NCBI RefSeq assembly: GCF_000243335.1
Contig: NZ_JH597773.1
Span: 196,365 to 260,364 of the forward strand
DNA: 64,000 bases
From: Leptonema illini DSM 21528
Lineage (GTDB): Bacteria > Spirochaetota > Leptospiria > Leptospirales > Leptonemataceae
Direction: 5' to 3'
Below, piece after piece: positions 6,474 to 32,987 of this stretch. The stretch's first letter is position 1; each line of letters begins with the position of its first letter. Both the position numbers and the translations under genes were made by a program. Below the pieces are notes generated by a model. That model was not told the origin of the DNA, made no database searches, and saw nothing but the letters and a program-made list of their open reading frames with translations.

Positions 6474-7526
6474 ATGAGCCATATCCTGATCGAAGAAGAA
6501 AACCCGTATGGAAACGCCGGCGCCTTCGTCGAAGACGACGGACGCACCGTCTATCTCTACAGAGTTCCGGCCGAGGGGTCGGTTATCCAGCCCTCTGCCG
6601 TCTGGGTACGCAACCTCCTGCCCGCTCCGACCGAAGCGGATGATGCGCCGGTACGCGGCATGGCTCCGCTCATGAAGGCCGACAGCTGCAATCACGCCGG
6701 AGGCTCCCCCGCTCTGCAATCCGACGAGCTTGACCTGATCTGGTTTCCCGATGGAACGGGCGTCACGCTCTACGTAAACGGAGAGGTGGAGGCAGTCTTG
6801 CCTCCCTGGGCCGGACACGATTTCGTTCAGGGTTATGCGCGCGAGGCCCGCGGCTATGAGGCCTCGACCATTCCGCTTCCTCCGGGCGACTCGGGTTTCC
6901 ATACGAGGCTTGAAGAGAACAGAGAGTTCTGGAACCGACGCACGCGAAAGGGCGACTGGGAAGAGTACAGGGATCGCATGCTTGCCTACTACGAGTCGTT
7001 TCTCGGCAGGCATTCGCAGTATTTCGCCGTCGATCAGAAGATCCCTCTGCTCGGCATCGTGCAGTTTAACGACGTACCGCTCGATCTGAAACGACCGACC
7101 TCAACAGGCGACCAGAGCAGCACCGTTCTTGTCACTCTCGGTATGGGACGACAGCCGCAACCCGGCATCGAGATGTATCATGAGAACCCCGACGAGATAC
7201 TGCATAGCGAGATACTCACGTTTTTTCCCGGAGCGCCCGATTTCGCCGTTTCCCTGCTCGGTCGCATCGCCGCCTACCCCTGGAAGACCGGACGCTTCTT
7301 CGACCACGGCCACATCTACGAAAGCGGGCGCACGGAGTCCGTATGCGATTTCTTGATCAGCGCGCATGCGGCGGATGCCGGCTGGCCCGTGATTCCGACA
7401 GCTCCTCTGCACGATGATCGTTATCCGATACGCATGCTTTATGCCGTACCGGCAACGCAGGAAGACGTGCTTGTGGCCCGCGCCAGAGGCGTGGATTTCA
7501 GGCTACAGCGCATGTTCGATCGCTGA
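6474..7526 (+). CDS. Suppressor-of-fused (Sufu) domain protein
   Basis: A 350-aa soluble protein. The ATG at 6474 is preferred over the TTG at 6453, which lies inside trxA. The first about 165 residues are unrecognised and contain an acidic beta-rich region. The C-terminal about 185 residues match the Sufu domain: a SSTVLVTLGMGRQPQ strand, EMYHENPDEILHSEI, then FLISAHAADAGWPVI and the PIRMLYAVPATQEDVLVARARG ending. In bacteria this domain often occurs in immunity-like or uncharacterised proteins. No toxin gene is adjacent here. It is probably coexpressed with trxA. Confidence 0.75.
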   Translation: MSHILIEEENPYGNAGAFVEDDGRTVYLYRVPAEGSVIQPSAVWVRNLLPAPTEADDAPVRGMAPLMKADSCNHAGGSPALQSDELDLIWFPDGTGVTLYVNGEVEAVLPPWAGHDFVQGYAREARGYEASTIPLPPGDSGFHTRLEENREFWNRRTRKGDWEEYRDRMLAYYESFLGRHSQYFAVDQKIPLLGIVQFNDVPLDLKRPTSTGDQSSTVLVTLGMGRQPQPGIEMYHENPDEILHSEILTFFPGAPDFAVSLLGRIAAYPWKTGRFFDHGHIYESGRTESVCDFLISAHAADAGWPVIPTAPLHDDRYPIRMLYAVPATQEDVLVARARGVDFRLQRMFDR

Positions 7527-7555
7527 CAAAACTCTTGCCAGCCCGTAGCCAACCG

Positions 7556-8581
7556 ATGAGCTGGAGTCGAATGAGACGCTCCGGCTCAGAATGGCATGAC
7601 CTGCTGCATCAGATCGACAGGCCGGTACTCTTTCTGAGCGTGCTCCTGCTGGGCGGCACGCTGGGCTACAGAGCGATCGAAGGATGGACCTATCTCGATT
7701 CGCTCTATATGACGGTGATCACGCTGACCACCGTCGGCTTCGGCGAAACCCATCCGCTCTCTGAGGGCGGACGCATATTTACGATAATCCTGCTTATTGG
7801 CGGCGTAATCTTTTATGCCACAGCTCTGAACGCCCTTGCCCAGGGATTGCTGGATCATCGCTTCGCCGAAATGATGAATCAACTTGGGATCAACAGGAAG
7901 ATCGCGAGAATGAAAGACCATTACATTATATGCGGCGGCGGTCGCATGGCCTTTGCAATCGGGCTGGAGCTTGAGAAGGCCGGCATTCCGTTCATTTTTA
8001 TCGAGCAGAATCCGCACTCCATCGTTACCGAACACAAGGTTCGCTGGCCCATTCTTATTAAAGACGCCCTGCTTGAAGAATCGCTGCTTGAGGCCGGCAT
8101 TCAGAAGGCGAAAGGCCTGGCCGCCGTGCTGCCCACCGATGCCGACAACTTATTCGTCGTGCTCTCCGCACGCAGTCTCAACCCTTCGCTTTTTATTCAC
8201 ACGCGTATCGCCCTTGAATCCAGTCGCTCTAAAATGATACAGGCCGGAGCCAACAAGGTCGTTTCGCCGTATAACGCCGGCGGAGTGCAGATTGCGCGGG
8301 CCTTCTTGAATCCCGAAGTCGACGACTTTCTCTCCGTCGTTACCGACCGTGCGCACTATGACTTCGAAATGAAGATGCATACGGTATCGCCAGACGATCC
8401 CTTCTGCAATAAACCGCTTCGCCAGACGGAGTTCCGACAGGAAGGCTTCACCGTCATCGCCGTAAAATATCCGGATGGACAGATGGTCTTCGCGCCCGAC
8501 GCATCGTTTTCGCTTCGCGCCGGGTATCAGATCTTTCTCATGGGGCCCGGACGACAGATCGTTCGCGACGAAGTAGAGTAG
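7556..8581 (+). CDS. Potassium channel with RCK/TrkA domains
   Basis: A 341-aa channel subunit. The ATG at 7556 is preferred over an upstream TTG at 7535. Two membrane helices (about 20-42 and 75-98) flank a pore loop with the selectivity filter TVGFGE. Then comes an RCK/TrkA-N Rossmann domain (DHYIICGGGRMA, with FIFIEQN after strand 2) and a TrkA-C domain at the end. The order matches MthK/Kch-type two-helix channels gated by ligand at the RCK ring. It should form a K+ channel in the inner membrane. The ligand is not evident. Confidence 0.88.
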   Translation: MSWSRMRRSGSEWHDLLHQIDRPVLFLSVLLLGGTLGYRAIEGWTYLDSLYMTVITLTTVGFGETHPLSEGGRIFTIILLIGGVIFYATALNALAQGLLDHRFAEMMNQLGINRKIARMKDHYIICGGGRMAFAIGLELEKAGIPFIFIEQNPHSIVTEHKVRWPILIKDALLEESLLEAGIQKAKGLAAVLPTDADNLFVVLSARSLNPSLFIHTRIALESSRSKMIQAGANKVVSPYNAGGVQIARAFLNPEVDDFLSVVTDRAHYDFEMKMHTVSPDDPFCNKPLRQTEFRQEGFTVIAVKYPDGQMVFAPDASFSLRAGYQIFLMGPGRQIVRDEVE

Positions 8582-8685
8582 CGGGAGGATAATCTCGCGC
8601 GAAACCTGCGAGAAAAGAAGCAATAAACGAGAGATTCAAAAAAAGTCCTTGTTCTGTCGCAGCTTTTTCCTCTCTTATCTTTAAG

Positions 8686-10404
8686 ATGGCCGGAATTCGA
8701 AGACGTCTGCTTCGCCTGCTGATGCGGCTGTACCAGCGACGAAGGTTACTCAGCCTTGGCCTGCTTTTCACGGCCCTGTATATCGGCGGGTTTGTCGTCG
8801 CTTTTCATCGATTCGGCACGGCACTGATTCTGCTCTCTTTTCTTCCTAACGCCGTCCTGTCGCTCGGTGGAAAACGCTACGGCATTCTTGCCGGCACGTT
8901 GATCGGCGCGATCAACACCATTTTCATCGTCGTCTATCTGCCCGAAATCACCGGCGAGCTCTTCTACAGCAGCGTTCTCATCGATTTTCTCGTTCAGATT
9001 CTGATCGGTCTGGGCGTGGGTCATCTTCGCGATAGCCAGCGCACGATGGAGCGCATCGTCAGGCAGAGGCAGCATGCCATTAATAGAGTGCGGCACATGG
9101 CCCTGCATGATTCGCTGACAGGTTTAGCCAATCATCGACTTCTCTATGAAGAGCTGGATCTCGAAATACGGCATGCACAACGCGATAAAAAGCGGCTGGC
9201 CGTTCTCTTCATCGACATCGACGATTTCAAGCACGTGAACGCCTCACTGGGTTATCATGAAGGCGACGAATTACTCAAGCATACCGGCAAGGCCATTCTT
9301 GACTCTCTGCGTCTCAGCGACACGGTCGCCCGCTTCGGCGGCGACGAATTCATCGCCGTTCTGCCAGGGATCGGGTCAGCAGAGGATATCCTGCCTGTCA
9401 CGAATCGATTGCTCAAAGCCATTCAAACAGCATCTGCGACGGTTCGTCTTTCCATCAGCGGCGGCATCGCCGTATACCCCGAAGACGGGACAACGCCGGC
9501 CGATCTGGTCCGCAATGCCACCGATGCGATGTTTGTGGCCAAAGAAAACGGAAAAGGACTCTTTCGTTACTGGAAAGAAGTACAGCACGAAACGATCCGG
9601 CATCGTCTTGCCGTCGAAGCGGCTTTACAGAGCGCTCTGCTGCGCGATGAATTCCGACTGTTTTATCAGCCCATCCTGCATATTACGGACGGCCATATTA
9701 TCGGCGCCGAGGCGTTGCTACGATGGACAAGCCCCGAACTGGGCGAGATCTCGCCCGCAGTCTTTATTCCTGTCGCCGAGAAAAGCGGCGTTATACGCGA
9801 GATCGGCCTCTGGGTTCTGGATCGCGTGCTCTCTGATCTGAAGGCTCTGAACGTGAAAGGCCAGGCCCTTGAATTTATCGCCGTGAACGTTTCCACAGTG
9901 CAGCTCATCGACCCGCACTTTCCAGCGCAGGCTCTACAGAAAATCCGGAGCGCCGGCATTGATCCGTCCAGACTTGAGTTTGAAGTGACCGAAACGGGCA
10001 TAGCGCTTCAGGGCAATCCGGCGGGATTGCTTGCGCCGATCAAAAAGATCGGCGTGCGCATCGCTCTTGATGATTTCGGTACGGGTAACTCTTCGCTGCG
10101 TTATCTTTCAGATCTGCCTATTGACGTTTTGAAAATCGACGGATCGTTCGTTAAGAAGACGATGGTCGACTCCAAAGCCGCCGTGATCACGCATACGATC
10201 GTCTCGCTGGCGCTTTTATTGAATCTGAATATCGTCGCCGAATGCATCGAAAACGAAGAGGAACGACAGACCATGTATTTCATGGGTGTGGATCGAATGC
10301 AGGGATTTCTTTTCAGTCCTGCCGTAGCCTTCGAAGAATTCTCGGCCATGCTCAGCCGCAATCACTCGCTGCCTCCGATTGAAACGATAGATTCCCATCC
10401 GTAA
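8686..10404 (+). CDS. Membrane-bound GGDEF-EAL cyclic-di-GMP enzyme
   Basis: A 572-aa protein. About three or four membrane helices (residues 20-115) are followed by GGDEF and EAL domains. The GGDEF site is intact (FGGDEFIAV) and the RxxD inhibitory site lies five residues before it (RLSD). The EAL domain keeps EALLRW, the DDFGTG loop, a downstream KIDGSFV and the Q/F-rich ending. Both synthase and phosphodiesterase activities are therefore possible. No sensory domain beyond the membrane region is seen. The minus-strand terminator at 10412-10437 separates it from the next gene. Confidence 0.9.
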   Translation: MAGIRRRLLRLLMRLYQRRRLLSLGLLFTALYIGGFVVAFHRFGTALILLSFLPNAVLSLGGKRYGILAGTLIGAINTIFIVVYLPEITGELFYSSVLIDFLVQILIGLGVGHLRDSQRTMERIVRQRQHAINRVRHMALHDSLTGLANHRLLYEELDLEIRHAQRDKKRLAVLFIDIDDFKHVNASLGYHEGDELLKHTGKAILDSLRLSDTVARFGGDEFIAVLPGIGSAEDILPVTNRLLKAIQTASATVRLSISGGIAVYPEDGTTPADLVRNATDAMFVAKENGKGLFRYWKEVQHETIRHRLAVEAALQSALLRDEFRLFYQPILHITDGHIIGAEALLRWTSPELGEISPAVFIPVAEKSGVIREIGLWVLDRVLSDLKALNVKGQALEFIAVNVSTVQLIDPHFPAQALQKIRSAGIDPSRLEFEVTETGIALQGNPAGLLAPIKKIGVRIALDDFGTGNSSLRYLSDLPIDVLKIDGSFVKKTMVDSKAAVITHTIVSLALLLNLNIVAECIENEEERQTMYFMGVDRMQGFLFSPAVAFEEFSAMLSRNHSLPPIETIDSHP

Positions 10405-21103: not shown

Positions 21104-23920
21104 ATGCCACCGACACCAGAGGATCAGGCCCGCGAAACGATCGATGCATTGCTCATAGCGGCTGGCTGGCATGTATGCGATGTGAAGGATACGAACATCC
21201 ATGCGGCTCGCGGCGTGGCGATCCGGGAGTTTCCTCTACCCGGCCATGGCTTTGCCGACTATCTGCTCTATGTCGATGGAAAGGCAGCCGGCGTTATTGA
21301 AGCGAAGCGCGAAGGCGTAACGCTGACAGGCGTTGAGATCCAGGCGCAGAAGTATACGAAGGGATTGCCGGCCGGGCTTCCTCGTGTCAGTGATCCCCTG
21401 CCCTTTGCCTATCAGTCGACGGGAACAGAGACGCGCTTCACAAACGGCCTTGATCCGCAGCCGCGTTCTCGGGCTGTGTCGGCCTTTCATCGCGCCGAGC
21501 ATCTGGCGGAGCTGCTTGATGCGCCTGCAAGCTCTGAATCGATGGGCGAGCAGCGGCTGCCCTATGGACGACACGCCACGTTTCTTTCCCGACTGCAAGA
21601 GATGCCCGAGCTCAAGACCGAAGGCCTCTGGCCGGCGCAGATCAAGGCCATCCAGAATCTCGAAACGTCGCTGAAAGAGAATCGTCCCCGTGCTCTGATT
21701 CAGATGGCAACGGGCTCAGGAAAAACCTTCACGTCGATCTCGTTTATCTACAGACTTATTAAATTCGCCGGAGCGCGGCGTGTGCTTTTTCTCGTCGACC
21801 GCGGCAATCTGGGTGATCAGACGCTCAAGGAATTCCAGCAGTACGATTCGCCGTATAACAACTTCAAGTTCACCGAAGAGTATATCGTTCAGAAACTGCA
21901 ATCGAATGTGATCGACCAGACGGCCCGGGTCTGCATCTGCACCATCCAGCGCATGTACTCGATCTTGAAGGGAAAGGATCTGCCCGACGATATGGACGAT
22001 CAATCGCTCGAGGGACTCGGTTCTCTGTTCAAACAGGCCGAGCCCATCGAGTATAATCCGAATATACCGATCGAGGCGTTTGATATCATCGTTACCGACG
22101 AATGCCATCGTTCGATCTATAACCTCTGGGCGCAGGTGCTCGAATACTTCGACGCTTACCTGATCGGGCTGACGGCAACGCCGAGCAAGCAGACCTTCGG
22201 CTTCTTCAATCAGAATCTTGTCATGGAGTATAACCATGAGATGGCCGTCGCCGACGGCGTGAACGTGAACTATGACGTCTATCGCATCCGCACGGCTATC
22301 AGCGAGGCCGGCTCTAAAGTGGAGGCCGGCTACTCGGTACAGATCCTTGAGCGTGAGACGCGCAACAAGCGCTGGCAGGAGCTGGACGAGGACTTCAGCT
22401 ATGATCCGAATCAGCTGGATCGCAGCGTCACCACGCCCGACCAGATCCGCACGATCATCCGCACCTTTCGTGAGAAGCTGTTTACAGAGATTTATCCGGG
22501 ACGCACGTGGGTGCCGAAGACGCTGATCTTCGCGAAGGACGACAACCATGCAGAGAACATCGTCGAAATCGTTCGAGAGGAGTTTGGCGATAAGGGCAGC
22601 AACGAATTCTGCAAGAAGATTACCTATCGCACTTCGGGAGAAAAGCCGAAGGATCTGATCAACGAGTTTCGCACAAGCCCCATGCCGCGCATCGCCGTTA
22701 CGGTTGATATGATCGCGACGGGCACCGATATCAAGGCCGTTGAGATCGTCATGTTCATGCGCGCCGTGAAGTCGCGCTCCTTCTTCGAGCAGATGAAGGG
22801 CCGCGGCGTGCGCGTGATCAAATCTGACGACTTGCTGAGTATAACGCCCGATGCCGGCGCGAAAGACCACTTCGTTATCGTCGATGCCGTCGGCGTCTGC
22901 GAACGGGATATGACCGACTCCCGCCCCATGGAACAGAAGCCGACGGTAAGCTTGGAACGGCTCATGCAGGCCGTCGTCTTTGGCAATACGGACGGCGACG
23001 TGCTTACCTCCCTTGCCGGCCGTCTTGCTCGCATGGAACATCGCCTGAGCGCCGACGATGATGAGCGCATTCGCGAAGTTACCGGCGGTCTTGGCGTGAA
23101 AGACATCAGCCATAACATCATCGCCGCCCTTGATCCCGATCGTCATATAGCACAGGCACGGGCCGATCTGCATATGGAGACGGGGCCTGTGCCAGACGAG
23201 GCCATTACAGCAGCCCGTCAGAGGATGATTCAGGAAGCCATCGGGCCGCTTCATAATCCGAAGACGCGCGAAACGCTCGATGCTATCAAAAAGAAGAACG
23301 AAATCATCATCGATACGGTGAGCAAGGATCAGGTGCTTGAGTCGTCGTTCTCGGCGACGTCTGTTGATCGTGCTCGGGCAACGGTGCAGTCGTTCGAGCT
23401 TTTTATTAAAGAGCACAAGGACGAGATTACGGCCCTGCAGATCCTATTCAGTCGGCCCTACCGCCACCGGCTAACCTTTGCTGCCGTCAAAGAACTGGCC
23501 GAGGCCATCGAGCGTCCTCCGTATCTATGGAATGAATCGCAGCTCTGGAATGCCTATGCTGCGCTTGAGTCGTCAAAGGTAAAAGGAGCAAGCGGACGGC
23601 GTATCTTAACCGACCTTGTCTCGCTGGTACGTTTTGCCATGCATGAAGATGCAGAGCTCATTCCCTTTCCCGATCGCGTGCATGCAAACTTCGAGGCATG
23701 GATGACCCAACAGCAAAGGGGCGGACGCAGCTTCACCGACGAGCAGCGTCAATGGCTGACGATGATCCGCGATCATATTGCAGCGAATCTGAGCATTGAT
23801 GCCGACGACTTCGAGTATGCTCCGTTCTCGCAGCATGGAGGCCTTGGCCGACTGCATCAGCTGTTCGGCGACGGGCTCGATCAGATTCTTACAGAGCTGA
23901 GTGAGATCCTTGCGGCGTGA
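21104..23920 (+). CDS. hsdR: Type I restriction enzyme R subunit
   Basis: A 938-aa motor and nuclease subunit. The N-terminal nuclease-like region (about 20-85) has LPGHGFADYLLYVDGKAAGVIEAKR, a PD-(D/E)XK pattern (D, then E-A-K). The helicase core has Walker A ATGSGKT (about 206), DEAH-type motif II as TDECH, motif III LTATP, and motif VI near EQMKGRGVR. The C-terminal region resembles EcoEI-type R subunits. All motifs look intact. The enzyme would need HsdM and HsdS to cut; the only long hsdM here is frameshifted, so restriction is doubtful. Two palindromes lie upstream. Confidence 0.92.
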   Translation: MPPTPEDQARETIDALLIAAGWHVCDVKDTNIHAARGVAIREFPLPGHGFADYLLYVDGKAAGVIEAKREGVTLTGVEIQAQKYTKGLPAGLPRVSDPLPFAYQSTGTETRFTNGLDPQPRSRAVSAFHRAEHLAELLDAPASSESMGEQRLPYGRHATFLSRLQEMPELKTEGLWPAQIKAIQNLETSLKENRPRALIQMATGSGKTFTSISFIYRLIKFAGARRVLFLVDRGNLGDQTLKEFQQYDSPYNNFKFTEEYIVQKLQSNVIDQTARVCICTIQRMYSILKGKDLPDDMDDQSLEGLGSLFKQAEPIEYNPNIPIEAFDIIVTDECHRSIYNLWAQVLEYFDAYLIGLTATPSKQTFGFFNQNLVMEYNHEMAVADGVNVNYDVYRIRTAISEAGSKVEAGYSVQILERETRNKRWQELDEDFSYDPNQLDRSVTTPDQIRTIIRTFREKLFTEIYPGRTWVPKTLIFAKDDNHAENIVEIVREEFGDKGSNEFCKKITYRTSGEKPKDLINEFRTSPMPRIAVTVDMIATGTDIKAVEIVMFMRAVKSRSFFEQMKGRGVRVIKSDDLLSITPDAGAKDHFVIVDAVGVCERDMTDSRPMEQKPTVSLERLMQAVVFGNTDGDVLTSLAGRLARMEHRLSADDDERIREVTGGLGVKDISHNIIAALDPDRHIAQARADLHMETGPVPDEAITAARQRMIQEAIGPLHNPKTRETLDAIKKKNEIIIDTVSKDQVLESSFSATSVDRARATVQSFELFIKEHKDEITALQILFSRPYRHRLTFAAVKELAEAIERPPYLWNESQLWNAYAALESSKVKGASGRRILTDLVSLVRFAMHEDAELIPFPDRVHANFEAWMTQQQRGGRSFTDEQRQWLTMIRDHIAANLSIDADDFEYAPFSQHGGLGRLHQLFGDGLDQILTELSEILAA

Positions 23921-24021: not shown

Positions 24022-24291
24022 ATGAACAGCGTCCCCGCACAGGAAATCAAGCGCCGCGGCATCGCTGCCGTTGACGAGGCCCTTGCCCGGGGGCCGGTAC
24101 ATATCATTCGCAACAACCGTCCCGAGTACGTTGTGCTGACGGCAGAAGGCTATGAGGAATTGCTCGAAGCCCAGGAAGAGGCTGCTCTGGGGCGCATCAA
24201 GGCATCGCTCGAAGATGCAAAGGCCGGCCGCCTCAGCAGGCATGACAGCGTCGAGGCGCTCCTGAACCATCTGGAATCCAGCGACGAATGA
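24022..24291 (+). CDS. Phd/YefM-family antitoxin
   Basis: An 89-aa protein with the Phd/YefM N-terminal DNA-binding fold (VPAQEIKRRGIAAVDEAL, then PVHIIRNNRPEYVVLTAEGYEEL) and a charged C-terminal helix that would wrap the toxin. Its stop overlaps the toxin start by 4 bases (ATGA), the normal order for this module. It should repress its own promoter and neutralise the RelE-like partner. Confidence 0.85.
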   Translation: MNSVPAQEIKRRGIAAVDEALARGPVHIIRNNRPEYVVLTAEGYEELLEAQEEAALGRIKASLEDAKAGRLSRHDSVEALLNHLESSDE

Positions 24292-24566
24292 GCTGGACGC
24301 TAACGACGACGGCCACCTTCGACCGCCGCGCCCGCAAGTTCCTCGCCAGACATCCGGACTTGAAGCCACGTCTGGCTGAGACGCTGGAAAAACTGCGCGT
24401 CGATCCGTTTGCACCCGGCCTGCGACTGCATGCGCTTACGGGCAAGCTTCAGGGCCTACAGGCCGTCAGCCTTATTTACAGCTATCGCATTACACTTACG
24501 CTTCAGATCACAGAGCGCGAGATCTTGCTGCTCGACATCGGCAGCCATGACGAGGTGTATAGGTGA
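24288..24566 (+). CDS. RelE/YafQ-like toxin
   Basis: A 92-aa protein of the RelE/ParE superfamily: TTTATFDRRARKFLARHPDLK, then PGLRLHALTGKLQGLQAVSL and the ending SYRITLTLQITEREILLLDIGSHDEVYR. The HALTGKL and GSHDEVY patterns are typical of the YafQ/RelE group of ribosome-dependent mRNA endonucleases. It is paired with the Phd/YefM antitoxin upstream. The module sits between hsdR and hsdS, splitting the restriction operon. Confidence 0.85.
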   Translation: MSWTLTTTATFDRRARKFLARHPDLKPRLAETLEKLRVDPFAPGLRLHALTGKLQGLQAVSLIYSYRITLTLQITEREILLLDIGSHDEVYR

Positions 24567-24734: not shown

Positions 24735-26216
24735 ATGAGGAAAGGGAAAGAAAGAACACCTATTGAAGAGCTCGATACTGAGCGTAACTTGAATAGGATA
24801 CACCTTCACGCATTGCCAGATAGTTGGGAGTGGCGGACTGTTGAAGATGCTGGGATCAATCAAAAAAATGCTATAGTTGATGGACCATTTGGGTCAAACC
24901 TGAAAGTAAGCGATTATGTTGAAGGAGGCCCCGTTCCCGTCTTAACAACTAAGAACCTTGAAGGCAACTACGATGATGTTCGATATATTTCCAATGACAA
25001 GTTTGAGGAGTTGAAACGTAGCGCAGTCCACTCCGGCGACATTCTCATGGCAAAAATTGGCTCCTGTGGAAAAACAGGAATCTATCCTCCTGAAAAGCCG
25101 CCAGCAATAATTCCCGCCAATCTATTGAAGATTACGCTGAATGAAAGATACGAGCGAAAGTATGTTTTCTACTATTTAAACTCCGAGTTCTTTCAAAGAG
25201 CATTACGTACTATTATCAAGGCAACAGCGCAACCGGCCTTTTCGGTAACAAACTTCCGCACGTTACCCTTACCTTATACTGAAGTAAGAATGCAGAAGCG
25301 CATCATTGCCGAGATCGAGAAGCAGTTCTCGCGTCTCGACGAGGCCGTTACGAATCTGAAGCGAGTGAAGGCTAACCTGAAACGTTACCGAGCTTCGGTG
25401 CTCAAGGCTGCCGTCGAAGGTCGCCTTGTAGAGACGGAGGCTGAGATTGCGCGAAGGGAAGGACGCGAATACGAGACTGGTAAACAGTTGCTGGAAAGGA
25501 TTCTGGAGACACGTCGCCGTGAATGGAAGGGTAAGGGGCAATATAAGGAGCCTGCTGCGCCCGATGTTAGCGAGCTGCCTGAAATGCCGGAAGGATGGGC
25601 GTGGGGGAGTTTGAATGGTATTGCTTCACTCAAAGGTGGCATAACGGTCGACAGCAAACGAAATAAAATCAATGCTCGCTTAGTCCCCTATCTGCGCGTT
25701 GCCAATGTCCAACGTGGCTATCTGGATTTGAGCGAAATAAAACACATACCAGTAAAAGAGTCTGATATTGCGGACCTTCGGTTAGAGTATGGCGATATCC
25801 TTTTCAACGAAGGGGGAGACCGCGATAAGCTGGGTCGGGGTTGGATCTGGGAATCTCAACTCGTCGATTGCATCCACCAGAATCATGTTTTCCGTGCGCG
25901 CCTTTATTCTTCCGATATGCCGCCCTCATTCGTATCCTGGTGGGGAAACACCTTTGGTAAAGAGTACTTTTCGCGAGAAGGAAAACAATCAACGAACTTG
26001 GCTTCCATTAATTTGACAAAGCTGAGTGCATTGCCAGTCCCCATCCCGCCGCTTGCCGAACAGCGGCGCATCGTTGCTGAGGTGGACCGTCGGCTCTCGC
26101 TGGTACGCGAGACGGAGGCTCAGGTGGAGGCGAATCTTAAGCGGGCAGAACAGCTGCGGCAGGCGGTGTTGCAGAAGGCCTTTTCGGGCGAGCTGGTAAG
26201 GGATGAGGCGGGGTGA
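24735..26216 (+). CDS. hsdS: Type I restriction enzyme specificity subunit
   Basis: A 493-aa protein with two target-recognition domains, each followed by a conserved coiled-coil spacer: the first spacer at about 180-235 (KRIIAEIEKQFSRLDEAV) and the second at about 435-490 (EQRRIVAEVDRRLSLV). Between them lies a shared linker with an ELPEMPEGWAW entry to the second domain. This is the full two-domain length. The first domain is AT-richer than its surroundings, as often seen when domains are exchanged. The last 106 bases are repeated downstream after hicB. Confidence 0.92.
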   Translation: MRKGKERTPIEELDTERNLNRIHLHALPDSWEWRTVEDAGINQKNAIVDGPFGSNLKVSDYVEGGPVPVLTTKNLEGNYDDVRYISNDKFEELKRSAVHSGDILMAKIGSCGKTGIYPPEKPPAIIPANLLKITLNERYERKYVFYYLNSEFFQRALRTIIKATAQPAFSVTNFRTLPLPYTEVRMQKRIIAEIEKQFSRLDEAVTNLKRVKANLKRYRASVLKAAVEGRLVETEAEIARREGREYETGKQLLERILETRRREWKGKGQYKEPAAPDVSELPEMPEGWAWGSLNGIASLKGGITVDSKRNKINARLVPYLRVANVQRGYLDLSEIKHIPVKESDIADLRLEYGDILFNEGGDRDKLGRGWIWESQLVDCIHQNHVFRARLYSSDMPPSFVSWWGNTFGKEYFSREGKQSTNLASINLTKLSALPVPIPPLAEQRRIVAEVDRRLSLVRETEAQVEANLKRAEQLRQAVLQKAFSGELVRDEAG

Positions 26217-26267: not shown

Positions 26268-26289
26268 ATGATACCACAGTATGATACCA
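26268..26289. promoter_or_regulatory. Direct repeats ATGATACCA upstream of hicA
   Basis: Two identical 9-bp copies, 13 bases apart, end 7 bases before the GTG start of hicA. HicB proteins with a ribbon-helix-helix domain bind repeated sites in their own promoter, so these may be the autoregulatory operator. This is inference. Confidence 0.4.
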
Positions 26290-26296
26290 TAGCTCT

Positions 26297-26551
26297 GTGA
26301 ACGCGAGAAACCGAAAGACGCTTGAGGATATCTTCAAACGTCCCGTTCCCGCCAGTATTGAATGGGCCGCCATCGAATCCTTGCTCCGGGCTCTGGGCGC
26401 TGAGATTTCGGAGGGAACCGGTTCACGCGTCCGCATTAAGCTCAATGGAGTTCGCGCCGTCTTTCATCGTCCGCACCCGCAGAAGGAGACGGACAGGGGA
26501 GCGGTGACCTCAATGCAGCGCTTTCTTGAGAACGCAGGAATAAAACCATGA
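26297..26551 (+). CDS. hicA: HicA-family toxin
   Basis: An 84-aa protein starting at GTG. It has the double-stranded RNA-binding-like HicA fold: WAAIESLLRALGAEISEGTGSRVRIKLNGVRAVFHRPHP, with the catalytic histidine in FHRPHP, and AGIKP at the end. HicA cleaves mRNA. The toxin gene comes first and overlaps hicB by 4 bases, as is usual for hicAB. The pair lies between the two copies of the hsdS 3' end. Confidence 0.9.
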   Translation: MNARNRKTLEDIFKRPVPASIEWAAIESLLRALGAEISEGTGSRVRIKLNGVRAVFHRPHPQKETDRGAVTSMQRFLENAGIKP

Positions 26552-26877
26552 TGGAATACAAGGGATATATCGGAACTGTTGAATTTGACGCCGATGCACG
26601 GATTTTCCACGGAGACGTGATCAATACACGTGACGTCATAACTTTTCAAGGGAAGACGGTCGATGAGATCGAACACGCCTTCAGGGAGTCCATCGATGAC
26701 TATCTGGAATGGTGTGCGGTAGAAGGAGTCGACCCGGAGAAGCCGTATTCTGGTAAGTTCAACCTTCGCCTGTCGCCGGACCTGCACAAAGAAGCCGCCG
26801 TTACGGCAAAACGCCTGAAGATGTCGTTAAACAGCTTCGTTGAAAAGGCACTGAGAGACGAGCTAAAGGCCCTTTAG
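26548..26877 (+). CDS. hicB: HicB-family antitoxin
   Basis: A 109-aa protein. The N-terminal part is the degenerate RNase H-like HicB fold (YKGYIGTVEFDADARIFHGDVIN, then FQGKTVDEIEHAFRESIDDYLEWC). The C-terminal part is a ribbon-helix-helix DNA-binding segment (GKFNLRLSPDLHKEAAVTAKRLKMSLNSFVEKAL). It should neutralise HicA and repress the pair. Its stop codon abuts the hsdS-derived repeat. Confidence 0.92.
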   Translation: MMEYKGYIGTVEFDADARIFHGDVINTRDVITFQGKTVDEIEHAFRESIDDYLEWCAVEGVDPEKPYSGKFNLRLSPDLHKEAAVTAKRLKMSLNSFVEKALRDELKAL

Positions 26878-27118: not shown

Positions 27119-28591
27119 ATGCGATTCCTTCTGGATACAAATATACTCATCCCACTTGAGGATTCGAAGCGACCTCTTGAACCCAGTCTTGCCAATTTTG
27201 TAAGACTGGCGACGAGCTATGGTCATCAACTCGTTTATCACCCGGCTTCAAAAGACGATATCAATCAAGATAAAGATCTTGAAAGGCGCAAGCAGACGCT
27301 CGATCGACTTCAGCAATACACTCCGCTTGAAAAGCTGCCGCCTTGCCCCTGGAACGTCGGCAGCACAAACAGAAACGATGTTGCTGATAACGAAATCCTC
27401 TATGCCCTGGAGATAAACGCCATTCACGGCCTTGTTACCGAAGATCAGGGCATTCATTCTAAAGCGAAATCGAAAGGGCTCGCACAGCACGTCTATACAA
27501 TTCAGACAGCTGAAGACCTGCTACGCAGGCTGCACGAACGAGAATCCGTTCATCTGCCCAATATCAATGACACTCCTCTCTACAGTCTTACCCCACTCTT
27601 AGATTCACCTTTCTTTGACAGCCTGAGGGAAGGATATCCGGAGTTCGATACCTGGTTTCGAAGCAAAGCCCAGGAGGGTCGAGAAGCCTGGGTTAACTGG
27701 GAACAGGATGGCATCATTGGCGGAATCTGCATATACACATTGCAGTCAGATGAGAGAATCACAGAAGACCGAACATTGACAGGTCAAGCACTGAAAATCT
27801 CTACTTTCAAGGTGGCTGACAGTAATCGTGGGAAAAAGATCGGCGAGCTATTCTTAAAGGCTGCGTTTCGGTATGCCAGCCAGAACCGCATAGAGAGTAT
27901 CTTTATTCATGGAGATATCAGCCGTCATCATTTCTTATTTGAGATGCTCGAAGACTTTGGCTTTTACAGGGTTGGATATCACCCCGGCAGTGGCGAGCGA
28001 GACGCCGTCTATCTCAAAGAACATCCGATCGAACCGCCAGTAACTGCCGATCTGACTGATTTTGAATACTCCCGGCGCTACTTCCCGCATTTTCGCAGTG
28101 ACGAGCATATCTTGAAGTTCGTTGTGCCCATTCAACCTGATTTCCATCGAATTCTCTTTCCCGACTATGAATCACCGGTCGATCGCCAGCCGAGTCTCTT
28201 TGCTTCTCAAAATAGTGCTGGCAATGCCATCAAGCTGGCCTACCTTTGTCATGCTCAGACAAAAGACATGCCACCCGGATCGGTCGTACTTTTTTACAGA
28301 TCTGGTGATGAAAGGGCAATTACCAGTCTCGGCATCGTAGAAAGCTATGAAACATCGATCGATGCCGACGAAATTGCCGCAAAAGTCAAACGTCGAACAG
28401 TCTATACAATGCAAGAAATCAAAAGAATCGCCGAGAAACCCACAAGAGTTATGTTGTTTCGGTTGATAAAACATTTCAAGGATCCACGACAACAGCAGTG
28501 GCTGATTGACTCAAAAATCTTAAGAGGGCCGCCTCAGAGTATTACACTCATTGATCACGAGAAATTCACGAGAATCAACGCCCATGAATAG
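27119..28591 (+). CDS. PIN - GNAT - PUA/EVE-like fusion protein
   Basis: A 490-aa three-part protein. Residues 1-130 are a PIN nuclease: LLDTN (Asp6), NDVADNE (Asp90/Glu92) and LVTEDQGI (Glu108/Asp109) supply the acidic metal site. Residues about 160-290 are a GNAT acetyltransferase: the acetyl-CoA loop is near DSNRGKKIGE, followed by a FEMLEDFGFYRVGY strand. Residues about 365-480 resemble an EVE/ASCH (PUA-fold) domain (PPGSVVLFYRSGDERAITSLGIVE). The next gene, an ASCH protein, overlaps it by 8 bases. The domain mix suggests RNA cutting, acetyl transfer and modified-base recognition in one protein. It may be a toxin or defence effector; this is inferred. Confidence 0.75.
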   Translation: MRFLLDTNILIPLEDSKRPLEPSLANFVRLATSYGHQLVYHPASKDDINQDKDLERRKQTLDRLQQYTPLEKLPPCPWNVGSTNRNDVADNEILYALEINAIHGLVTEDQGIHSKAKSKGLAQHVYTIQTAEDLLRRLHERESVHLPNINDTPLYSLTPLLDSPFFDSLREGYPEFDTWFRSKAQEGREAWVNWEQDGIIGGICIYTLQSDERITEDRTLTGQALKISTFKVADSNRGKKIGELFLKAAFRYASQNRIESIFIHGDISRHHFLFEMLEDFGFYRVGYHPGSGERDAVYLKEHPIEPPVTADLTDFEYSRRYFPHFRSDEHILKFVVPIQPDFHRILFPDYESPVDRQPSLFASQNSAGNAIKLAYLCHAQTKDMPPGSVVLFYRSGDERAITSLGIVESYETSIDADEIAAKVKRRTVYTMQEIKRIAEKPTRVMLFRLIKHFKDPRQQQWLIDSKILRGPPQSITLIDHEKFTRINAHE

Positions 28592-29087
28592 CAAAGCAGT
28601 CCTCATCTCCATTCATCCAGAGCATGTAGCGAAGATTCTTTCGGGTGAGAAACGACTTGAGTTTCGCCGTCAGTGGGCCGCTCAGCCCATTGACGTTCTT
28701 GTCATCTATGCCACGTCGCCGGTTCAGAAAATCATTGCTATCACTCGTATTCAGAATGTCTTTCGCGGCAGCAAAACTCACCTATGGGCGCTGGCCCAGG
28801 AAAAAGGCGGGGGTATTAGCAGAAAGCAGCTCTTTGATTATATGGATGGCAAAGACGAAGGCGTTGCTATCGAGCTCTCCCGACTTCTAAAATTGAAGGA
28901 CGGCGTTCATCTCAGCAGTGTCTTCGGCGAAAACTTCAAACCTCCACAATCGTTTCGATATCTGACGCCGAGTGAACTGGAAAGACTCATACGGTTAACG
29001 GAGGCAGACAAAAGCGAAGCACCTCCACTTTCCCGATCCGATACCAAGCAAGAAAGGCAATATGCACTGTTTCCTGCTGCTCAGTGA
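28584..29087 (+). CDS. ASCH-domain protein
   Basis: A 167-aa protein; the ATG at 28584 is preferred because the domain starts at once. It shows the ASCH pattern: AVLISIHPEHVAKILSGEKRLEFRR (with the GxKxxExR signature), then VLVIYATSPVQKIIAITRIQ, and a later IELSRL region. ASCH domains have a PUA-like fold and bind RNA or modified nucleotides. The gene overlaps the PIN-GNAT gene by 8 bases, so the two are cotranslated and probably work together. It could be the antitoxin or specificity partner. Confidence 0.82.
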   Translation: MNSKAVLISIHPEHVAKILSGEKRLEFRRQWAAQPIDVLVIYATSPVQKIIAITRIQNVFRGSKTHLWALAQEKGGGISRKQLFDYMDGKDEGVAIELSRLLKLKDGVHLSSVFGENFKPPQSFRYLTPSELERLIRLTEADKSEAPPLSRSDTKQERQYALFPAAQ

Positions 29088-29280: not shown

Positions 29281-29319
29281 GGGTAATACCCTTAAATAAG
29301 GGTAATAAAGAGGGTAATA
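29281..29319. promoter_or_regulatory. Palindrome and GGGTAATA repeats at the hsdM start
   Basis: A perfect palindrome TACCCTTA-AA-TAAGGGTA (29287-29304) is embedded in three direct copies of GGGTAATA (29281, 29300, 29312). The last copy overlaps the ribosome-binding site AGAGGG of hsdM. A protein bound here would block translation start or transcription of hsdM. Confidence 0.6.
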
Positions 29320-29323
29320 ACGC

Positions 29324-30831
29324 ATGACTCCTGCAAATATCGTACAGAAACTCTGGAACTACTGCAACGTGCTGCGTGATGACGGCATGTCGTACGGCGA
29401 TTATGTGGAGCAGTTGACCTATCTGCTCTTCCTCAAGATGGCGGACGAGCGCACGAAGGCGCCGTACAAGCAAAAAAGCCCGGTGCCCGACGAATACAGC
29501 TGGCCCAGCCTGATCAAGAAAGACGGCGACGACCTCTTCGATCATTACCGCCACACGCTTGAAAAGCTCGGTAACGAGAAAGGCCTGCTCGGACTGATCT
29601 TCAACAAGTCGCAGAATAAGTTTCAGGATCCGGCGAAGCTGCGTCGGCTTGTCGTCGATCTCATCGATAAAGAGCAATGGGTGTCGATGAGCGCCGACGT
29701 CAAAGGCGATGCCTACGAAGGCCTGCTTGAGAAGAACGCACAGGATACGAAATCGGGCGCCGGTCAGTATTTCACGCCCCGTCCGCTGATCCAGGCCATC
29801 GTCGATGTGATGGCTCCGAAGCCCTCAGCGATCCGGCCTGTGGCACAGGCGGATTTCTGTTAGCCGCTCATGATTACGTCGTGCGTAACAATCCGAACAT
29901 GACGAAGGCCGAGAAGACGAAACTCAAAGAAGAAACGTTTAAGGGATGGGAGCTCGTTCAGGCGACGGCTCGTCTCTGCGCCATGAACATGCTTCTTCAT
30001 GGCATCGGCAGCCTGTCTGCCTCCGATGCAAAGAACGACTCTTCTCGTTCGCTTCCTATCATCGTTTCGGATTCGCTCGGCGCCGATCCGGGAGATCGCT
30101 TCGATATCGTGTTAACCAATCCACCCTTTGGCAAGAAAAGCAGCACGACGATCGTCGGCGAAGAAGGCAAGGTCAGCAAGGAACGCGACACGGTAGAGCG
30201 CGGAGATTTCTGGACGACGACGTCGAACAAGCAACTGAACTTCGTGCAGCATGTAAAAACCTTATTGAAGCAAAACGGACGAGCAGCCGTCGTCGTTCCG
30301 GATAACGTTCTTTTCGAGGGCGGCGCCGGTGAAACCATCCGACGTAAACTTCTGCAAGAGTGCGACGTGCATACGCTGCTGCGGCTGCCTACGGGGCTCT
30401 TTTATGCACAGGGCGTGAAAGCGAACGTGCTCTTTTTCGACAAGAAGCCGGCCAGCGAAACGCCATGGACGAAGAAGCTCTGGATCTACGACCTGCGCAC
30501 AAACATGCACTTCACGCTGAAGACCGATCCTCTGAAGCGTGAAGATCTCGACGAGTTTGTGAAGTGTTATAACGCTGCGAACCGTCACAGCCGCAAGGCC
30601 ACGTTTAGCGAGAAGAACCCTGACGGTCGCTGGCGAGCTTATGCTTACGACGAGCTGGTGGCCCGCGATAAGGCCAGCCTTGATATCTTCTGGCTGAAAG
30701 ATGAGTCGCTTTCAGAATCTGACAACCTGCCCTCGCCCGACATCATCGCTCTTGAAATCGTCGAAGATCTGGAAGCGGCTCTGGCGCAGTTTCGCGAGAT
30801 CGCGGGCGATTTGAACGGGAATGGGGGGTGA
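29324..30831 (+). pseudogene. hsdM: Type I modification methylase, frameshifted
   Basis: The first reading frame (29324-29863) encodes the helical N-terminal domain and the start of the methylase (AGQYFTPRPLIQAIVDVMAPKP). It then leaves the family frame at about 29825, and stops. The second frame resumes from 29830 with DPACGTGGFLLAAHDYV, carrying SAM-binding motif I, then NPPFGKK (motif IV), and runs to 30831. Only five bases separate the KP and DPACG codons where relatives have about five codons, so about 10 bases seem to have been lost. The joined product would be about 500 aa. Unless this is a sequencing error, the methylase is inactive. Confidence 0.88.
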
Positions 30832-30866: not shown

Positions 30867-30959
30867 ATGGACAGCAACGCTATTACAGCCGTCGCAACGG
30901 TGTTTCTTGTTATTGTAGGGGTTCAGCAAATACGCATACTGCATCTTCAGCACAGGCAG

Positions 30960-30989
<30 letters not shown>
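30867..30989 (+). pseudogene. 5' fragment of a membrane-protein gene cut by the IS256-type element
   Basis: An ATG with a GAGG sequence upstream starts a frame with a hydrophobic segment (AITAVATVFLVIVGVQQI). After 31 codons it runs into the left end of the insertion element, and stops nine codons later inside it. The gene lay directly after hsdM. The remainder is not found beyond the element; the far side carries hsdM sequence instead. I cannot name the family. Confidence 0.6.

Positions 30990-32987
<1,998 letters not shown>

Follow-up and report, generated by a model that had tools for sequence, protein, structure and literature searches.

Can a type I restriction-modification (R-M) operon still methylate or cut DNA when its modification gene, hsdM, is divided between two reading frames, and what becomes of the other genes that the operon carries? 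This question is raised by a locus of Leptonema illini in the window, the whole stretch of 64,000 nt that was analysed, which is part of a 4,522,760-base genome in three contigs. The genes of the operon are ordered hsdR-relBE-hsdS-hicAB-(PIN-GNAT-EVE)-ASCH-hsdM, all on the forward strand.

The lesion in hsdM

The 5' part of the interrupted gene, here called copy A (29324..29863; 179 codons), matches HsdM_N plus N6_Mtase positions 2-47 in a profile search, and its translation terminates prematurely at a TAG at 29861-29863. N6_Mtase from position 48 onward is encoded in the other frame, open over 29731-30831, which supplies the 3' part of copy A from SAM-binding motif I (DPACGTGG) to the C-terminus. 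The frame changes at 29825-29830, immediately before motif I, with HsdM_N and N6_Mtase 1-47 on one side and the rest of the domain on the other. This confirms the frameshift at motif I that had been claimed in an earlier note on this DNA.

The size of the lesion is given by comparison with relatives of the copy A HsdM. The window has 35 nt between a lysine codon that ends at 29824 and a leucine codon at 29860, and the equivalent spacing is 45 nt in 82 of 83 relatives; the remaining relative, L093, has a spacing of 47 nt with its N match out of register. The difference from the 82 means that exactly 10 nt are missing directly 5' of motif I, in line with the earlier estimate of about 10. No full-length open frame of copy A with motif I and NPPF together was found, and in neither predicted product is motif I continuous with the remainder of the enzyme.

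Copy A otherwise resembles known subunits. EcoKI M (PDB 2AR0/2Y7C) and StySJI M (2OKC) share HsdM_N, N6_Mtase, motif I, and NPPF with the window hsdM, and the C-terminal ORF of copy A aligns to 2OKC at E 1e-76 and to EcoKI M at E 2e-55. Unlike these two proteins, the window hsdM is frameshifted before motif I, and unlike the EcoKI and StySJI systems, the window operon is arranged R-S-M and has cargo between the last two of these genes.

A second hsdM copy at an IS256-family element

Two hsdM genes, rather than one, appear to have been lost at this locus; the earlier note missed both the second copy and the insertion sequence (IS) beside it. Copy B (32339..32987, forward strand) is identified by similarity to copy A as a 5'-truncated remnant of 216 codons, and its positions 32339-32638 are 90% identical to 30183-30482 of copy A. 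Over the 216 codons, there are 60 differences between the copies, of which 52 fall at third positions, with dN 0.013-0.014, dS 0.39-0.48, and dN/dS of ~0.03. Because these differences are almost all synonymous, both copies were functional until recently and thus stayed under functional constraint through almost the whole time since they separated. Five replacement changes can be polarised to copy B and none to copy A (one-sided p ~0.03), a result that rests on these five changes and on outgroups only ~77% identical in DNA. With no replacement changes assigned to it, copy A weakly suggests an absence of decay beyond the lesion, which agrees with a recent loss.

The 5' half of copy A matches solely itself genome-wide, which makes the lesion site single-copy, and the missing 5' part of copy B was not found in the genome. 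Copy B was rejected as a repair donor for copy A, because the remnant does not overlap the lesion.

Copy B starts exactly at the right edge of an element (30960..32338) with terminal inverted repeats and a transposase (30962-32248, reverse strand) that matches Transposase_mut in a profile search. The element has 27 matching places in the genome, and 12 of its 15 full-length copies are flanked by a target duplication of 8-9 bp, which the copy at 30960-32338 lacks. The mutator transposase, the inverted ends, and the target duplication in most copies place it in the IS256 family. The left end of the element cuts the start of a small gene (30867..30959, forward strand), which is left with 31 codons before the IS end and has no match at the relatives' loci. 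A reciprocal partner of this IS junction was not found among the other IS flanks examined. Given that copy B starts at the IS edge and that no target duplication is present, the simplest account is that the sequence between the small gene and copy B was lost by adjacent deletion or by IS-IS recombination. This IS-mediated step is deduced from the junction, and at the IS copies of this assembly recombination and mis-joining look alike.

Unusual junctions are found at other copies of the element. On contig C1, an IS at 1184710-1186289 (L033) and IS pieces at both contig ends (L045, L129) have crossed target duplications, GGCCGATTC and CTTCTCTTT, a pattern suggesting either that two IS copies recombined or that the assembly was mis-joined there. 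Contig C3 (184,087 bases) begins and ends in one IS (L131, L132), with the duplication CCTATCGT common to the two ends, and may therefore be circular, for example a plasmid.

Error, switching, and recoding

A gene that is intact in the real strain could appear broken through sequencing or assembly error, as the earlier note had allowed. The genome is an improved draft, some of its IS junctions appear to be mis-joins or products of recombination, and a homologous partial copy lies near the lesion. However, copy B does not extend to the affected site, so collapse of the two copies cannot create the gap, and the lesion consists of 10 nt in single-copy DNA with no homopolymer. A gap of this length outside a homopolymer is not known as a typical error of Illumina or 454. 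Coverage also argues against error: the assembly of the type strain 3055T, apparently the genome analysed here, combines 1,277x Illumina with 35x 454 reads (~1,312x), and its stated error rate is below 1 in 100,000 (PMC3746420). A sequencing or assembly error is therefore improbable as the cause. The earlier note had also suggested phase variation, in which the gap would be one setting of a reversible on/off switch. Phase variation is known among type I systems, and the reading frames flanking the gap are undamaged. However, there is no simple repeat at the site, neither the lesion nor a related length state occurs in any of the 83 relatives, and no invertible or recombining donor covers the site, the sole homologous donor in the genome being the copy B remnant. 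A switch of this kind is thus very improbable.

It is also conceivable that the two frames of copy A together yield a functional enzyme, either through frameshifting or as a pair of separate subunits. Both frames are well conserved, and they overlap over 29731-29863, where a -1 shift would fuse them. Several features speak strongly against such a split or recoded HsdM and make it scarcely credible. No -1 slippery heptamer is present in the overlap, and the first ATG, GTG, or TTG of the C-terminal frame is GTG 29881, 3' of motif I, which led to rejection of both programmed frameshifting and reinitiation. Moreover, a fused product would still be without about three residues next to motif I, and the split arrangement is shared by no relative. 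A fixed, recent null mutation in copy A fits the sequence best. With the lesion plain in the DNA, we infer loss of HsdM activity, and the window system is very probably dead by ordinary gene decay.

Fate of the enzyme and its cargo

The remaining subunit genes are open, and the claim that both are intact holds for each. In hsdR (21104..23920; 940 codons), profile searches find ResIII, SWI2_SNF2, EcoEI_R_C, and HSDR_N, and thus nuclease and SF2 motor domains, and close relatives match residues 5-940, essentially end to end, at 60-77%. The specificity gene hsdS (24735..26216) has Methylase_S in two stretches, corresponding to two target-recognition domains, and matches PADLOC Specificity_I. Neither the M2S methylase nor the R2M2S nuclease can be assembled by HsdS and HsdR when HsdM is missing; both activities would therefore disappear at once, and the chromosome would not be attacked. 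The proposal that loss of HsdM silences both activities is well supported by the sequence and by the known architecture, in which the type I enzyme is 2R+2M+S and the methylase is 2M+S (PMC3874165).

The window system is one of five type I loci in the genome, and the four others have hsdR, hsdS, and hsdM. Replacement of the window HsdM by one of theirs is unlikely, because these proteins are only ~28-32% identical to it and belong to different families. At one other type I locus (L160), an IS copy 99.9% identical lies at the hsdS 3' end (7316-8693; 8667-9761) and hsdS matches one specificity domain only; on these grounds, that system may be damaged as well.

The cargo frames are open, and the embedded genes may still work. 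Between hsdR and hsdS lies a YefM/Phd-type antitoxin gene (24022..24291; PhdYeFM_antitox) with a putative RelE/YoeB-like toxin partner (24288..24566) that is assigned by its position beside the antitoxin and has no PADLOC match; the pair is in the same place in relatives L051 and L082. A putative HicA/HicB-like pair (26285..26877) is named from the translations of its open frames rather than from a profile, and a HicA-like match (45%) lies downstream of hsdM in relative L080. The PIN-GNAT-(EVE) protein (27119..28591; Acetyltransf_1), with a putative EVE part, matches the PADLOC candidate PDC-M11A (E=3.5e-136), and the adjoining gene for its ASCH-type partner (28584..29087) matches the candidate PDC-M11B (E=3.7e-44), which identifies the two as a PDC-M11 pair. 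The PIN-GNAT/ASCH pair is also found between hsdS and hsdM in a Thermoplasmata (archaeal) locus, L108. Three GGGTAATA repeats at 29281-29319, just 5' of the hsdM start, may serve as a site for a regulator; they were not seen upstream of ten relatives.

Relatives keep the R-S-M order with variable defence cargo between hsdS and hsdM. This interval exceeds 300 bp in 41 of 48 loci (median 2,072 bp), and the cargo includes AbiE, Fic, DarT and macro domains, HepT, PIN, HerA, AAA, and GmrSD proteins. Changing defence or toxin-antitoxin cargo is found in most R-S-M family loci (L049-L128), in both bacteria and archaea. In seven relatives (L051, L061, L074, L075, L077, L089, L094), additional short copies of the 5' end of hsdM are found upstream of the intact gene, either ahead of the cargo or within it, a pattern expected from insertion with target duplication. 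Neither plasmids (best match 77% coverage at 66%) nor viral contigs (38-60%, with one partial match at 85%) provided a closer homologue.

Several published systems are comparable. EcoprrI, with embedded PrrC (PMC3874165), likewise has toxin-type cargo inside a type I operon, whereas the window cargo is RelBE, HicAB, and PIN-GNAT/ASCH, and its restraint by the R-M enzyme is without support. DarTG2 is embedded with RptR in a type I R-M island of EPEC (PMC12255303), another case of an hsd operon that houses defence or toxin-antitoxin genes, but that island acts against phages and has its cargo between hsdS and hsdR. Bell et al. 2020 described PIN-GNAT-EVE/ASCH modules beside type I R-M genes (PMC7641849); the window has the same module next to hsd genes, but inside an operon with a broken hsdM. 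Embedding of cargo in type I operons, including this PIN-GNAT pair, is thus already published and is not new.

Very likely, the locus represents a type I R-M operon that was inactivated recently, with copy A frameshifted, copy B truncated via the IS, and the cargo open. In the proposed sequence of events, a 10-nt deletion in copy A shifted the frame before motif I, leaving the 179-codon fragment and no SAM-binding HsdM. A second functional hsdM, either an old duplicate or the gene of a separate but closely related system, would once have stood downstream, and IS-mediated deletion or recombination between IS copies would have removed its 5' part. Both losses would be recent relative to the divergence of the two copies.

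The locus adds a further example to the known cases of R-M decay and otherwise shows ordinary decay of a defence gene; the window system should be listed as inactive. It is possible, though doubtful, that loss of hsdM turned the operon into a carrier for PIN-GNAT/ASCH, RelBE, and HicAB cargo that is intact and working without the R-M complex; if true, this would argue against PrrC-like restraint of the cargo by the R-M enzyme. With the enzyme very probably gone and the cargo frames open, the locus would offer a natural test of whether such cargo depends on the R-M enzyme.
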